Part shown: in pieces, positions 3,148 to 32,301 of the stretch | Numbering within the stretch: position 1 is the stretch's first letter | Layout of the letters: each line of letters starts with the position of its first letter | Source: a virus | Length of the DNA: 39,783 nt | IMG/VR virus record: IMGVR_UViG_3300031857_000488 | Location: 1-39,783 of that record | Direction: 5' to 3' (one strand) | Translations under genes and position numbers: made by a program | The notes under the pieces: model-generated | Databases searched by the model: none | What the model saw: the letters and a program-made list of their open reading frames with translations, nothing else | What the model was told of the DNA's origin: nothing

Positions 3148-4635
3148 ATGCCAGTTAATGCATCCCCTTCATTTGCCTTGCAGCCATCTGCGTATAGGCA
3201 GACCTTGAATACTAACTACATTGGTAGTTCTAGTTTCAACTTCTTAAATCAATATCTTCCCGACATCTACGAGAAGGAGTTTGAGCGTTACGGTAATCGT
3301 AGCATCTCCGGCTTCTTGCGTATGGTTGGCGCGGAAATGCCATGTTCTTCCGACTTGATTAAGTGGGCTGAGCAAGGACGCCTTCACACCAAGTATACTG
3401 CCTGTACTTGTACTGACCATGCTGCTGGTGTGACGACTTTGACGGTGCCTACAACAAACAACAATGCTGCTTCAGGATATCCACAGGCATCTCAGCAGGC
3501 TCTTACTACTTCAACGGCACCGGGCACAAACTTCAATCTCCGTATCGGCCAAACCTTGCTGCTTCAAAGAGAAAATGGAACCGGCACATTTCACGCTGTA
3601 GTATCCGCAATCACTTATGCCAACTCTCTTGCCGCTCAAACTGCTACTCTTCAAATTTATGAAAATGCAGCAAATATTGCGGGCGGCGTTTTATCTTCTG
3701 GAACCTGGACCGTTTGGGTGTATGGCTCTGAGTTTAAAAAGGGCACGAATGGAATGGCCGAGTCTCTAATGCCTTATGATTTCATTTTTGAGAATAACCC
3801 AATCATCCTTAAGGACAAGTATTCTGTCACCGGTTCTGACATGACTCAAATTGGATGGGTTGAAGTAACTGGTGAGAACGGTGTTTCTGGATACCTTTGG
3901 TATATGAAGGCTGAGCACGACTCTCGTTTGCGTTTTGAAGATTATTTGGAGTCGTCTATGATTGAGGCCGTTCCTGTTGATAGCACAAATAGCGGTGCCA
4001 GTACCCAGGGATTCAAAGGAACAAGTGGTGTATTTCACTCCGTGACTAATCGTGGTAATGTGTTTAGCGGTGGCTATCCTACTAGCTTAATTGACTTTGA
4101 CGCCATCGTTCAACGTCTTGACAAGCAGGGTGCTATCGAGGAGAATGCACTGTTCCTTAACCGCGCAGCTTCATTCGCCATGGATGACTTCTTGGCCGCT
4201 CAAAACTCGTATGGCACGGGAGGAACTTCTTACGGCCTCTTCGACAACAACGAGCAAATGGCACTGAACCTTGGATTCCGTGGATTCCGTCGTGGTTATG
4301 ACTTCTATAAGTCTGATTGGAAATACCTTAACGACCCAACTATGCGTGGTCAGGGCACTGCATCAGGAACTGTAGGAGGCGCTATCAATGGTATGCTTGT
4401 ACCTGCTGGTACAACCAATGTGTATGACGAGGTAATGGGGCAAAACGCTAAGCGTCCATTCCTGCACGTTCGTTATCGCGAAACAGAGCAAGAAAGCCGT
4501 AAGTTTAAGACTTGGGTGACTGGTTCTGCCGGAGGTGCTGCCACGAGCGACTTGGACGCGATGGAGGTTCATTATTTGTCAGAGCGTACTATTTGTACCC
4601 TTGGTGCAAACAACTTCTTCATTTTCCAATCGTAA
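3148..4635 (+). CDS. Major capsid protein (HK97-fold, crAss-like)
   Basis: A 495-residue protein forming the icosahedral shell. Residues 41-60 (YEKEFERYGNRSISGFLRMV) followed by GAEMPCSSD and WAEQGRLH are the conserved N-terminal region I associate with crAss-like major capsid proteins, and the length is typical. The gene starts six bases after the scaffold stop and is followed by a strong intrinsic terminator, consistent with high, separately terminated expression. Codons are varied and the protein ends with an aromatic stretch (NNFFIFQS). The HK97 fold is established for this family and is not directly visible here. Confidence 0.88.
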   Translation: MPVNASPSFALQPSAYRQTLNTNYIGSSSFNFLNQYLPDIYEKEFERYGNRSISGFLRMVGAEMPCSSDLIKWAEQGRLHTKYTACTCTDHAAGVTTLTVPTTNNNAASGYPQASQQALTTSTAPGTNFNLRIGQTLLLQRENGTGTFHAVVSAITYANSLAAQTATLQIYENAANIAGGVLSSGTWTVWVYGSEFKKGTNGMAESLMPYDFIFENNPIILKDKYSVTGSDMTQIGWVEVTGENGVSGYLWYMKAEHDSRLRFEDYLESSMIEAVPVDSTNSGASTQGFKGTSGVFHSVTNRGNVFSGGYPTSLIDFDAIVQRLDKQGAIEENALFLNRAASFAMDDFLAAQNSYGTGGTSYGLFDNNEQMALNLGFRGFRRGYDFYKSDWKYLNDPTMRGQGTASGTVGGAINGMLVPAGTTNVYDEVMGQNAKRPFLHVRYRETEQESRKFKTWVTGSAGGAATSDLDAMEVHYLSERTICTLGANNFFIFQS

Positions 4636-4644
4636 ACTTTAAAC

Positions 4645-4675
4645 GGGGGGGCGGATTCCGCTCCCCCTTATTTTT
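4645..4675 (+). terminator. Rho-independent terminator after capsid gene
   Basis: A ten-base-pair GC-rich hairpin (GGGGGGGCGG / CCGCTCCCCC, three-base loop, one G-U pair) is followed by TTATTTTT. It starts ten bases after the capsid stop and precedes the next gene by about 20 bases. Confidence 0.88.
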
Positions 4676-4693
4676 AAATTAAAAAAAAATCAA

Positions 4694-5413
4694 ATGGAAA
4701 CCAAAGTATACAAACTCATAGGAGGGGCCGCTCCTGACAGTTTCTACCTCGCAAGCAGAAACACAACGGCCAGAAGGCTTTACCACTTCGACGGTAAGAC
4801 AAATAGAGCTCTCAGATATGCTAGAAATCAGAAGAGCCCTTTCGAGGACGAGCAAGACGGTAATTTCATTTTGGAGCCCATTGTCTTTGAGAATGGGTTT
4901 TTGACCGTTTATGAGGATAATCCTGTTCTGCAAAAGTTTCTTGAGGTTCATCCTGACAACGGGAAATTGTTTGAGCTCGTGGATAATCAAAAGGATGCTC
5001 AATCTGAAATTGATGAGTACGACTTGGAGCACGAGGCATTGACTAGGGCTCGGACTATGGAGTTCAAGATGATGGAGGCTATTGTCCGGATAAGTCTTGG
5101 TATTGACCCAGAGAAGATGTCTGTCCCTGAGATTAAGAGGGAGATTTACCGATTGGCCAGGAACTATCCGAGTGAATTGTTGTCTATGGCCAATGACCCT
5201 CATATAGCTCATGAGGGCACGGTATCTAAGATGTTTACGGATGGCTTATTGATTGCCAAGCGCAACACCGTGCACTACAACTTGCCTAATAACAAGAGCA
5301 AGCTGACAAACATTCCTTCGGACCAAACCGCGCAACAGGCTGTTAGTTCTTACTTCCTGACTGAAGAAGGCTCTCAGGCTATGGTGGTATTAGAAAAATT
5401 CATGCATCAATAA
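4694..5413 (+). CDS. Conserved head-region protein of unknown function
   Basis: A 239-residue soluble protein with no signal peptide or membrane segment. It carries the patch LRYARNQKSPFEDEQDGNFI near residues 39-58 and IVFENGFLTV near 63-72. I recognise this pattern as a protein recurrent next to capsid genes of Bacteroidota phages, but no biochemical role is known to me. The C-terminal half is helical, with VHYNLPNNKSKL near residue 196. It sits between the capsid terminator and a promoter-like element, so it is probably expressed with the virion genes by readthrough. A head completion or minor capsid role is only inferred from location. Confidence 0.7.
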   Translation: METKVYKLIGGAAPDSFYLASRNTTARRLYHFDGKTNRALRYARNQKSPFEDEQDGNFILEPIVFENGFLTVYEDNPVLQKFLEVHPDNGKLFELVDNQKDAQSEIDEYDLEHEALTRARTMEFKMMEAIVRISLGIDPEKMSVPEIKREIYRLARNYPSELLSMANDPHIAHEGTVSKMFTDGLLIAKRNTVHYNLPNNKSKLTNIPSDQTAQQAVSSYFLTEEGSQAMVVLEKFMHQ

Positions 5414-30702: not shown

Positions 30703-31083
30703 TTAAATTCTATATTTTTCATAAGTATTTTTTTGTGATTTCCTATGAGGATATAATTTTACAGTCTTGCCCTTAATTTCTTTTACTGGGATTTTGTACC
30801 AAGCATTTTCTGGAATAACATATATTGCTACATAATCAATGTCTTTATCAGAATATTGTTGTTTGGCATCAGCTCCTGAACAAACTAAACAATTATAACA
30901 ATCCATACCAGATGAAGTATCTTTTCTTGATGTAGATTTAACTTGTATTTTTTCAAGAGTATTTCCAGTATCTACAATCAAATCATATTTGGCATTATCT
31001 CCAAAAGGTTTTGATACAATATAACCTAATTCATGGTTTAATAACATAAATCTCAATTCAGCAGAGTCTCCTTGATGTTTCAT
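30703..31083 (-). CDS. PD-(D/E)XK endonuclease, I-Ssp6803I-like
   Basis: A 126-residue predicted nuclease with E9 (GDSAEL), D34 in AKYDLIVD and the QVK triad at 47-49 (EKIQVKSTSRK). This spacing resembles the PD-(D/E)XK family that includes the tRNA-intron homing endonuclease I-Ssp6803I. Three cysteines (CYNCLVC, residues 62-68) may bind metal or stabilise the fold. The ATG at 31083 is preferred over an in-frame upstream start at 31122, because the family starts near KHQGDSAEL. The gene is very AT-rich (about 70%) and differs sharply from its neighbours, a sign of transfer. It lies just downstream of the tRNA-like gene. Homing activity is inference; a host-directed nuclease or resolvase is an alternative. 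Confidence 0.75.
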   Translation of the reverse strand: MKHQGDSAELRFMLLNHELGYIVSKPFGDNAKYDLIVDTGNTLEKIQVKSTSRKDTSSGMDCYNCLVCSGADAKQQYSDKDIDYVAIYVIPENAWYKIPVKEIKGKTVKLYPHRKSQKNTYEKYRI

Positions 31084-31133: not shown

Positions 31134-31165
31134 AGCAAACCTGTCAAATTAATGACAGGCTTGCT
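31134..31165 (-). terminator. Strong hairpin just after the tRNA-like gene
   Basis: On the minus strand, AGCAAGCCTGTCA pairs over 13 positions (one G-U) with TGACAGGTTTGCT, with a six-base loop. It starts 15 bases beyond the tRNA-like 3' end. No U-run follows in the leftward direction, so it may act as a 3' processing or stabilising hairpin or as a weak terminator; in the rightward direction TTT follows it. Confidence 0.6.
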
Positions 31166-31180
31166 TTAATCTATCCAATT

Positions 31181-31322
31181 AGCCAGGAACAGGATTCGAA
31201 CCTGTATGAGATGAGGAGTCAACTTAACTATCTCCTACGCTTCCCTTGCACATTTCTACGGACATTACTGTCGGGCATCTCTAACCTAGATAATGTAGCG
31301 TCTACCATTCCGCCACCTGACT
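31181..31322 (-). tRNA. Oversized tRNA-like gene (Leu/class II-like ends)
   Basis: Both tRNA ends are clear. The 5' acceptor AGTCAGG pairs with the 3' CCTGGCT (7 bp, one G-U). The D-arm region TGGCGGAATGGTAGACGC resembles tRNA-Leu, and the T-arm is ACAGG-TTCGAAT-CCTGT. CCA is not encoded. The element is 142 nt, against about 85 for a class II tRNA. ACATT after the D-arm can pair with AATGT, but with a 25-nt instead of a 7-nt loop (which begins ATCTAGG), and 56 nt remain before the T-arm. The interior also holds GACA-GTAA-TGTC, a hairpin with a GNRA-type loop. I therefore cannot assign an anticodon. It could be an interrupted tRNA, a decayed tRNA or a tRNA-like regulatory RNA. The end structure is strong; functional charging is uncertain. 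Confidence 0.6.
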
Positions 31323-31332
31323 GTGTTCTTGA

Positions 31333-31572
31333 TTAGCCTCTTGCTTCTACTATTCCTGATGCTTCGCTTAACTTCTCTGCATTAAAATAGTCAGGAGCAT
31401 AAATTTTGCCAATTTCAAGAGGTTTTTTGACGTACTCTTGCAGGTCGGTAATTGCCTCTTCAGTACTTTCAAAGGCAAACGACTTGCATCCAACTCTAAC
31501 CACGCATCCGCGGTCAAAAAAGTTAATCTCAACGGAGTGGGATTTTAAAAATGAAATTTCTTCTCGTGTCAT
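31333..31572 (-). CDS. Small phage protein of unknown function
   Basis: A 79-residue protein beginning MTREEISFLKSHSVEINFFD. The first half looks beta-rich (VEINFFDRGCVVRVGCKSFAF), with the pattern of a small regulatory or inhibitor fold; the second half has a helix (STEEAITDLQEYVKK) and ends GIVEARG. There are no membrane segments or catalytic motifs. It lies between the tRNA-like gene and a cluster of small early-type genes, with a promoter-like TATATTTGT about 20 bases upstream. I do not recognise the family. Confidence 0.65.
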   Translation of the reverse strand: MTREEISFLKSHSVEINFFDRGCVVRVGCKSFAFESTEEAITDLQEYVKKPLEIGKIYAPDYFNAEKLSEASGIVEARG

Positions 31573-31828: not shown

Positions 31829-32053
31829 TTAAAGTGTAAGTCCTGATTCCCCAAGGATATCCCTAATCTTATCCCTGGTGCTGTCATATATCTTGTACTG
31901 CTCTTCAGATAGATTGTCGTTATACTTCACTTCGCTCCTGAGCCATTGGTCAATCTCCCAGACTACTTGTTTCCACCTCCATCCGTTAACGGCATTGTCG
32001 AAGTTGACCGTATCCTCTCCATCATCCATATTAAATTCTAGAATCGCCTTCAT
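31829..32053 (-). CDS. Small conserved phage protein (MKAILEFN family)
   Basis: A 74-residue protein beginning MKAILEFNMDDGEDTVNFDN, with a second part WEIDQWLRSEVKYNDNLSEE and a helical end. The pattern of a beta-strand start followed by W..DQ.LR...KY....L is a small protein family I recognise as recurrent in phage early regions, function unknown. Its first eleven residues match those of the adjacent upstream 83-residue protein (MKATLEFNMDD). Its ATG overlaps that gene's stop by four bases (ATGA). A tight operon position suggests co-expression with the amidase/DnaA-like region. Confidence 0.75.
   Translation of the reverse strand: MKAILEFNMDDGEDTVNFDNAVNGWRWKQVVWEIDQWLRSEVKYNDNLSEEQYKIYDSTRDKIRDILGESGLTL
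32021..32053 (-). repeat. 33-base repeat at gene start, copy 1
   Basis: This stretch differs from 32269-32301 at two of 33 positions. In each case it encodes the first eleven residues (MKA-T/I-LEFNMDD) of the gene. Confidence 0.85.
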
Positions 32054-32301
32054 ATTTTTCGGGGTTCACAATCACAATTAAACATCTCATTAATCTGACC
32101 GTCAGACCATCCGTGCCCTCTGAGGCAGTCCTTGAGCATATCAGCGAACTCTTGTTTATCTAAGTCATACTTGCTCCTGGTCACGATTGTCTTATGAACA
32201 TCCCCTTCTTCGTAGGATGTTTCTATGGTTATTTTGGTGTAGAGGTGCTCTCTAAAGTTGCCCTCCCTATCATCCATATTAAATTCTAGAGTCGCTTTCA
32301 T
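32050..32301 (-). CDS. Small phage protein sharing its N-terminus with the next gene
   Basis: An 83-residue protein that starts MKATLEFNMDDREGNFREHL, then diverges into a beta-rich stretch (LYTKITIETSYEEGDVHKTI) and a helical end (EFADMLKDCLRGHGWSDGQI, CDCEPRKI). The remainder is unrelated to the neighbouring 74-residue protein. This suggests that the 5' end was duplicated or exchanged by recombination, not that the whole gene was duplicated. It is three bases downstream of the DnaA-like gene. Function is unknown; the terminal CDC motif is too short for a metal-binding claim. Confidence 0.68.
   Translation of the reverse strand: MKATLEFNMDDREGNFREHLYTKITIETSYEEGDVHKTIVTRSKYDLDKQEFADMLKDCLRGHGWSDGQINEMFNCDCEPRKI
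32269..32301 (-). repeat. 33-base repeat at gene start, copy 2
   Basis: Partner of 32021-32053, same orientation and same reading frame, 31 of 33 bases identical. Confidence 0.85.

Follow-up and report, generated by a model that had tools for sequence, protein, structure and literature searches.

A tRNA-like element carried by a tailed phage was found to belong to a large, mainly phage-borne family in which a near-invariant shell of tRNA-Leu type encloses a middle that changes from one member to the next. The explanation we prefer, at a probability of about 60%, is that these elements form a natural 'tRNA scaffold' RNA family combining this shell with an exchangeable hypervariable domain, by the mechanism described below. 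The element lies in the window (the whole stretch of DNA analysed, the 39.8 kb IMG/VR record IMGVR_UViG_3300031857_000488), which represents a tailed phage with a portal protein of phrog_6547 and encodes a primase-type protein with a BT4734-like domain.

The element, its parts and its neighbours are listed in Table 1. The 79-aa ORF, the element, the hairpin and the endonuclease gene follow one another in that order on the minus strand, and the hairpin of a relative (L436) has base changes with the pairing kept. The adjacent small ORFs at 31829–32053 and 32050–32301 in the window have near-identical starts (MKAILEFNMDD and MKATLEFNMDD), apparently from a tandem duplication of the start.

Table 1. 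Coordinates in the window of the tRNA-like element, its parts and the flanking features
Feature	Coordinates	Strand	Remarks
79-aa ORF	31333..31572	-	Stop codon 10 nt before the element
Whole tRNA-like element	31180..31322	-	143 nt including discriminator A73; nt 1 is 31322
Acceptor stem, 5' strand AGTCAGG	31316..31322	-	7/7 pairing with 31181–31187
tRNA-Leu type D-arm GCGGAATGGTAGACGC	31298..31313	-	Commonest D-arm of the family (29/140)
Hypervariable middle, 92 nt	31206..31297	-	Replaces the anticodon and variable arms
T-arm ACAGG-TTCGAAT-CCTGT	31189..31205	-	Perfect, 5/5 T-stem
Extra U, 3' arm	31188	-	Between the T-stem and the 3' acceptor strand
Acceptor stem, 3' strand CCTGGCT, and discriminator A	31180..31187	-	A is 31180; CCA not encoded
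Strong hairpin, 12-bp class	31134..31165	-	Between the element and the endonuclease gene
PD-(D/E)XK (PDDEXK_5) endonuclease gene	30703..31083	-	ATG start at 31083; I-Ssp6803I-like

The preliminary description, made from the sequence alone, had called a tRNA-like gene with ~57 nt of excess length and convincing acceptor, D- and T-arms, and this was borne out. The two acceptor strands pair throughout, with one G-U pair, and are followed by T8G9 and then by the D-arm GCGGAATGGTAGACGC, a bacterial tRNA-Leu motif; the T-stem is complete with a TTCGAAT loop, and 92 nt stand where a canonical anticodon arm, which is absent, and a variable arm would be expected. The span given there, 31181–31322, captured a real element, but this runs on the minus strand from 31322 to 31180, and the extra U had gone unnoticed. 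A strict detector that required a 7-bp acceptor stem, a 5-bp T-stem, a TTCRA loop and a D-stem with a GG loop, with one bulge allowed, had this element as its sole match in the window, and 150 dinucleotide shuffles gave no match. When the bulge was disallowed, there were no matches in the window. The element was missed by both ARAGORN and Rfam at the gathering cut-off, the Rfam tRNA model giving a partial match of 16.9 bits, below its cut-off of 29.

Further odd tRNA-like genes sharing both arms were reached via relatives of a neighbouring methylase gene, and the family was then collected by scanning IMG/VR with the 5' arm pattern and, in a second scan, with the 3' arm, the resulting counts being lower bounds. 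Most of the 5' arm matches listed go on to carry the corresponding T-arm and 3' acceptor strand. Among the matches listed, the family comprises at least 226 distinct elements at at least 160 loci, with at least 182 clusters of middles, of which 159 are singletons. Its scaffold reads AGTCAGG-TG-GCGGAATTGGTAGACGC ... ACAGGTTCGAATCCTGT-CCTGACT-A, in which ACAGGTTCGAATCCTGT is the T-arm, and the unaltered 3' arm is CCTGTCCTGACT. The window element, with an AGTCAGG-type acceptor, a Leu-type D-arm, a T-arm and a non-tRNA middle, is a member. In the first 140 members, the AGTCAGG/CCTGACT acceptor occurs almost throughout, the D-arm and T-arm are near-invariant, and the middle is 17–229 nt long; across the family its length ranges from ~13 to 230 nt, with a median of 56 nt for the 182 cluster representatives. 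The same seven bases, AGTCAGG, form the acceptor strand in 199 of the 226 members among the matches listed, in a family sampled via this commonest acceptor. In scaffolds that have a different acceptor, its two strands still pair (GAGATAG/CTATCTC, AGCCAAG/CTTGGCT, AGCAGAG/CTCTGCT and GGCTATG/CATGGCC). Additional scaffolds enclosing non-tRNA middles, namely GGCTATG...CATGGCC, AACCGAA... and TTCTATT...AATAGAA, were seen beside the first one (L443 after 5238, L082 at 10407 and L535 at 11190). Four members (L197 at 484, L273 at 4212, L209 and L262) have inserts in the D-loop that are nested tRNA-like modules, and a T-arm-like hairpin closes the insert of L273 itself.

In 24 phage records, the 5' pattern (with up to two mismatches) was present up to nine times per record, always on one strand within each, and in some phages the elements are interspersed among near-complete sets of canonical tRNAs. 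No gene family was found to recur beside the elements when neighbouring genes were compared across the family, and none of the elements was linked to a defence system. Among annotated phages, the window element has no direct DNA relatives, and a search of them with the concatenated scaffold returned no record in which both halves were well matched; it returned only ordinary tRNAs, integrase-linked fragments of tRNA-Leu in cyanophages and an element in Caulobacter phage Cr30. In cyanophage S-TIP37, a truncated tRNA-Leu-like sequence (L401, 1501–1560) is located 88 nt after an integrase gene and is probably a phage attachment site. The Cr30 element (L402, ~993–1150) is an unannotated tRNA-Leu-like gene of ~155 nt in which the anticodon stem (ACAGA/TCTGT) and the variable arm look normal and a large insert interrupts the anticodon loop; it could be a truly interrupted tRNA. 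In bacterial genomes, ~80 loci with the 5' pattern were listed, and family members were found in three among the matches listed, all of them metagenome-assembled genome (MAG) contigs (Sediminibacterium, Flavobacterium and a Neisseriaceae bin). The two of these MAG contigs that were examined carry phage-type genes, such as those for ERF recombinase or DnaB helicase, so these members do not represent a known host tRNA.

The positions on which the tRNA elbow depends are kept across the family: A14A15 in 93%, the GG of the D-loop in 91%, T48 in 86%, TTC in 98%, and R57A58 and the G53-C61 pair in 100% of elements, with A73 in 87%. The shell clearly has its origin in tRNA-Leu. Retention of A73 and of A15-U48 is no more than suggestive with regard to charging by LeuRS or use by the ribosome. 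When the Rfam tRNA model was applied as an independent judge to three arrays, many members were called, mostly at 35–45 bits, compared with 42–74 bits for the canonical tRNAs in those arrays. ARAGORN called part of the family as tRNA, with scattered isotypes.

As a set, the middles are structured. The mean minimum free energy (MFE) z-score of 104 non-redundant middles was -0.78, and 22 GNRA or UNCG hairpins were found in middles against 8.8 +/- 2.8 expected. The one subfamily represented by six homologs has, at the position of the anticodon stem, a helix of 8 bp in which three pairs are changed on both sides. Over the whole structure of this subfamily there are seven such pairs, including some in the T-stem, and 97.6% of cells are paired; none of 500 shuffles scored as high for pairing, and the score was far above that of slid controls. 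For the window element, the structured interior that had been claimed did not hold up, since its middle folds as expected by chance (z = +0.3) and the element as a whole has a z-score of 0.0. The two features cited for it exist but carry less weight than was given to them: when the middle is shuffled, a 7-bp complementarity like that of ATTATCT with AGATAGT appears in 41% of cases and a GNRA-type hairpin like GACA-GTAA-TGTC in 5%. As the window middle folds no better than its shuffles, no specific fold is proposed for it. No homolog of this middle was found either, there being no exact 18-mer match in IMG/VR and no match of more than 11 nt in the rest of the window.

The middles are exchanged at fixed loci. 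Downstream of homologs of the 79-aa gene that precedes the window element (L441–L453), the same scaffold recurs but encloses different middles; it also stands upstream of homologs of the endonuclease gene (L436–L439), again with differing middles. The normal tRNA of ~85 nt that the preliminary description had named as the outcome speaking against its reading was not seen at this locus in relatives, which have equally abnormal interiors. Where both flanks are homologous, 28 pairs of loci have different middles versus 14 with the same middle, and inclusion of one-sided homology gives 75 distinct pairs with differing middles. In the sister phages G018 and G022 (L532 and L533), the flanks are ~99% identical and the middles differ at three positions, while the middle AAGCCTAATAAGCAAGCTGATATT occurs at different loci in the two; one middle is present twice within one phage. 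The replaced stretch extends from within the D-arm to the T-arm. Middles are probably swapped by recombination or gene conversion via the conserved arms. Some of the swaps could be assembly chimeras between the repeated arms.

The protein encoded downstream of the window element belongs to PDDEXK_5 (Pfam, 81 bits versus a cut-off of 26) and matches PDB entry 2ost (E = 2.6e-7), which we take to be I-Ssp6803I. I-Ssp6803I is the homing endonuclease of a tRNA intron, and the protein in the window likewise adjoins a tRNA-type gene; its gene, however, is free-standing, outside a group I intron, and the T-arm/acceptor would be its target. Of six homologs of this endonuclease in hand, five adjoin an element and the sixth adjoins what reads as a tRNA-Leu; a profile scan for further homologs returned the same five only. 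The 3' arm of all five endonuclease-linked elements has a 1-nt insertion, compared with an indel in 4 of 169 others (Fisher p ~1e-7), though the five come from related phages, with linked endonucleases 87–89% identical in amino acid sequence to that of the window, and so are not fully independent. The inserted base is found at three positions, CCTGT[T]CC in the window and L438, CCT[T]GTCC in L436 and L437, and CC[A]TGACT in L439, and close pairs among the five differ in the position inserted. The insertion looks like target-site immunity with the 3' arm as the putative target, as a free-standing homing endonuclease requires an alteration of this kind to spare its own chromosome. Homing endonuclease ORFs of the GIY-YIG (SegB-like) type lie between tRNAs and elements in L533 (2206–2835, identified by Pfam, and 4233–4871) and in L184 (4327–5085).

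In the scaffold mechanism that we propose, an element would be co-transcribed with genes or tRNAs beside it, then excised by host RNase P and RNase Z, with CCA addition. These three activities read mainly the acceptor/T/D half of a tRNA; the shell should suffice for them, so a stable RNA presenting the middle would be expected. This product would be unable to decode as a normal tRNA, as is apparent from the sequence, because a canonical anticodon arm is absent from the window element and rare in the family. Middles would be replaced as cassettes, in the pattern seen at the fixed loci, through recombination between conserved arms; homing endonucleases such as the I-Ssp6803I-like neighbour would help this exchange, and the 1-nt insertion in the 3' arm would spoil their target. 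The stable product would then present its variable domain to host factors. The function we favour, as possible rather than probable, is that of a decoy: it would act on defence nucleases or toxins for which the anticodon/variable half is the part of a tRNA that they recognise, and this would account for the diversification of precisely that half. Septu and retron-Eco7 cleave the variable loop of tRNA-Tyr (PMC13096335), and phage tRNAs have been proposed to evade anticodon nucleases (PMC10264068). Possible alternatives to a decoy role are binding of different protein ligands, antisense action and existence as a purely selfish DNA cassette. The wider proposal, to which we give well under even odds, is of a widespread phage RNA class in which a fixed tRNA-Leu shell processes, stabilises and presents shuffled domains, with exchange driven by homing endonucleases, as an arsenal against tRNA-recognising host factors.

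Other explanations of the family were weighed against the scaffold reading. The elements might be selfish DNA cassettes originating from tRNA-Leu, with the arms serving as a landing site that is cut by homing endonucleases and spread or homogenised by gene conversion, and the middles as cargo or debris. Adjacency of the I-Ssp6803I-like gene, the altered 3' arms in five of five linked copies, a GIY-YIG-type ORF within an array, and an acceptor whose seven bases are themselves near-invariant, beyond mere pairing, all point that way. However, this is at odds with the tRNA tertiary positions that are kept, with the pairing of the rarer scaffolds with other acceptors, and with the structure signals and compensatory changes in the middles; moreover, most elements have no endonuclease neighbour and the copies within a genome are all on one strand. 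We consider this explanation unlikely. Rather lower in our estimate are decoding tRNAs of Leu type, degenerate or fast-evolving, with oversized anticodon/variable arms selected for escape from anticodon nucleases. The Leu-type D-arm, A73 and A15-U48 fit such tRNAs, as do the ARAGORN calls for part of the family and canonical anticodon arms slightly above expectation: a 7-nt loop on a 5-bp stem lies in the canonical place in 10 of 179 (4.5 expected), and a canonical arm somewhere in the middle in 9 of 179 (4 expected), so that a few tRNA-like members may in fact decode. Against this, U33 is at the level of chance (38 of 125 members) and not conserved, the anticodons are scattered, and the shortest members have hairpins with 3- or 4-nt loops, such as CGGGCTC-GAAA-GGGCCTG, at the place of the anticodon arm, while normal tRNA-Leu genes are present in the same arrays.

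Small antisense RNAs capped by a tRNA shell, with a middle that pairs with mRNA of the host, of a rival phage or of the phage itself, would account for hypervariable, unique sequences that are present several to a genome and have A-rich unpaired stretches (33% A). The window middle has no such partner in its own window above the 11 nt already mentioned, and comparison of middles with the fetched loci found mostly other copies of the elements, the remainder being matches of ~17–20 nt; we rate a role of this kind about as low as decoding. Lowest of all stands the interpretation as tRNA genes with small, unusual spliced introns, which the preliminary description had offered as one option and which we judge scarcely credible. 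The excess length suggests it, and the Leu-type gene of Cr30, with its intact anticodon stem and variable arm and its large anticodon-loop insert, shows what such a gene would look like. In the family, however, neither the anticodon arm nor the variable arm, nor U33, is constant among the 182 clusters of middles, so there is no exon to restore; the inserts of 13–230 nt share no motif, no Rfam intron matches, and the shortest members are too small to hide an intron. For group I introns in particular, Rfam gave no match at the gathering cut-off and none up to E = 10 around the window element. An interrupted tRNA was therefore rejected for this family of 182 clusters on one scaffold. The other option put forward at that stage, a tRNA mimic or novel RNA, fared better, as the element proved to be part of a large unnamed family with a hypervariable interior that is exchanged between phages.

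Several known RNAs share features with the family. T4 stable RNAs C and D (rnaC, 139 nt, and rnaD, 119 nt) are of comparable size and also lie beside a tRNA array, one that holds the GIY-YIG homing endonuclease gene segB as arrays of the family hold such ORFs. T4 rnaC (L539, 1409–1547) has a perfect T-arm, CCGGG-TTCGAAT-CCCGG, near its 3' end as in the family but, unlike it, has no clear D-arm and no 7-bp acceptor. To our knowledge, T4 RNAs C and D have no known function, and we know of no hypervariable, exchanged family of RNAs of this type. Canonical phage tRNA-Leu (RF00005) has the acceptor, D-arm, T-arm, A73, A15-U48, array location and strand in common with the family, which differs in its very varied middle lengths and its want of a constant anticodon or variable arm. 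Like tmRNA, the elements have tRNA-like ends, a long interior and no anticodon, but they keep a full D-arm; tmRNA was rejected, as ARAGORN and Rfam found none in the window and many members are far too short. In engineered tRNA scaffolds, the outer half of a tRNA reportedly stabilises a foreign RNA placed at the anticodon arm, which is the same layout, though artificial, whereas the family is natural and massively diversified. Such a scaffold has been described for recombinant RNA (PMC3753655). GOLLD and ROOL are phage RNAs of unknown function found near tRNA islands (PMC12286853), as are the elements, but are much larger and have conserved folds, and their Rfam models matched neither the window nor the three arrays examined. 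In the available part of the account of SegB, this homing endonuclease, located in tRNA arrays as here, drives change of phage tRNA loci under selective pressure from tRNA-targeting defences (PMC13096335); there SegB amplifies intact tRNA genes, and that part contains no hypervariable tRNA-like RNAs. Apart from the general tRNA model, no Rfam family fits the elements, and the literature searched yielded no account of a family like this, although most subscription journals lay outside it and an earlier description is possible. The system, an invariant tRNA shell with a hypervariable, swapped core, was rated as new in category, with the shell derived from tRNA-Leu.

Current annotation tools miss the genes of this family or call them odd tRNAs. 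If the scaffold reading is correct, phages would have long used the 'tRNA scaffold' that biotechnology invented, one into which any structured RNA could be slotted to be matured by the host. The elements would also make up a new class of non-coding RNA, hypervariable and with a visible route of diversification, namely the swapping of cassettes and a homing endonuclease whose own site is altered. The purpose of phage tRNA arrays would then become directly testable, because the hypervariability falls on the half of the tRNA that is cut by bacterial defence nucleases.
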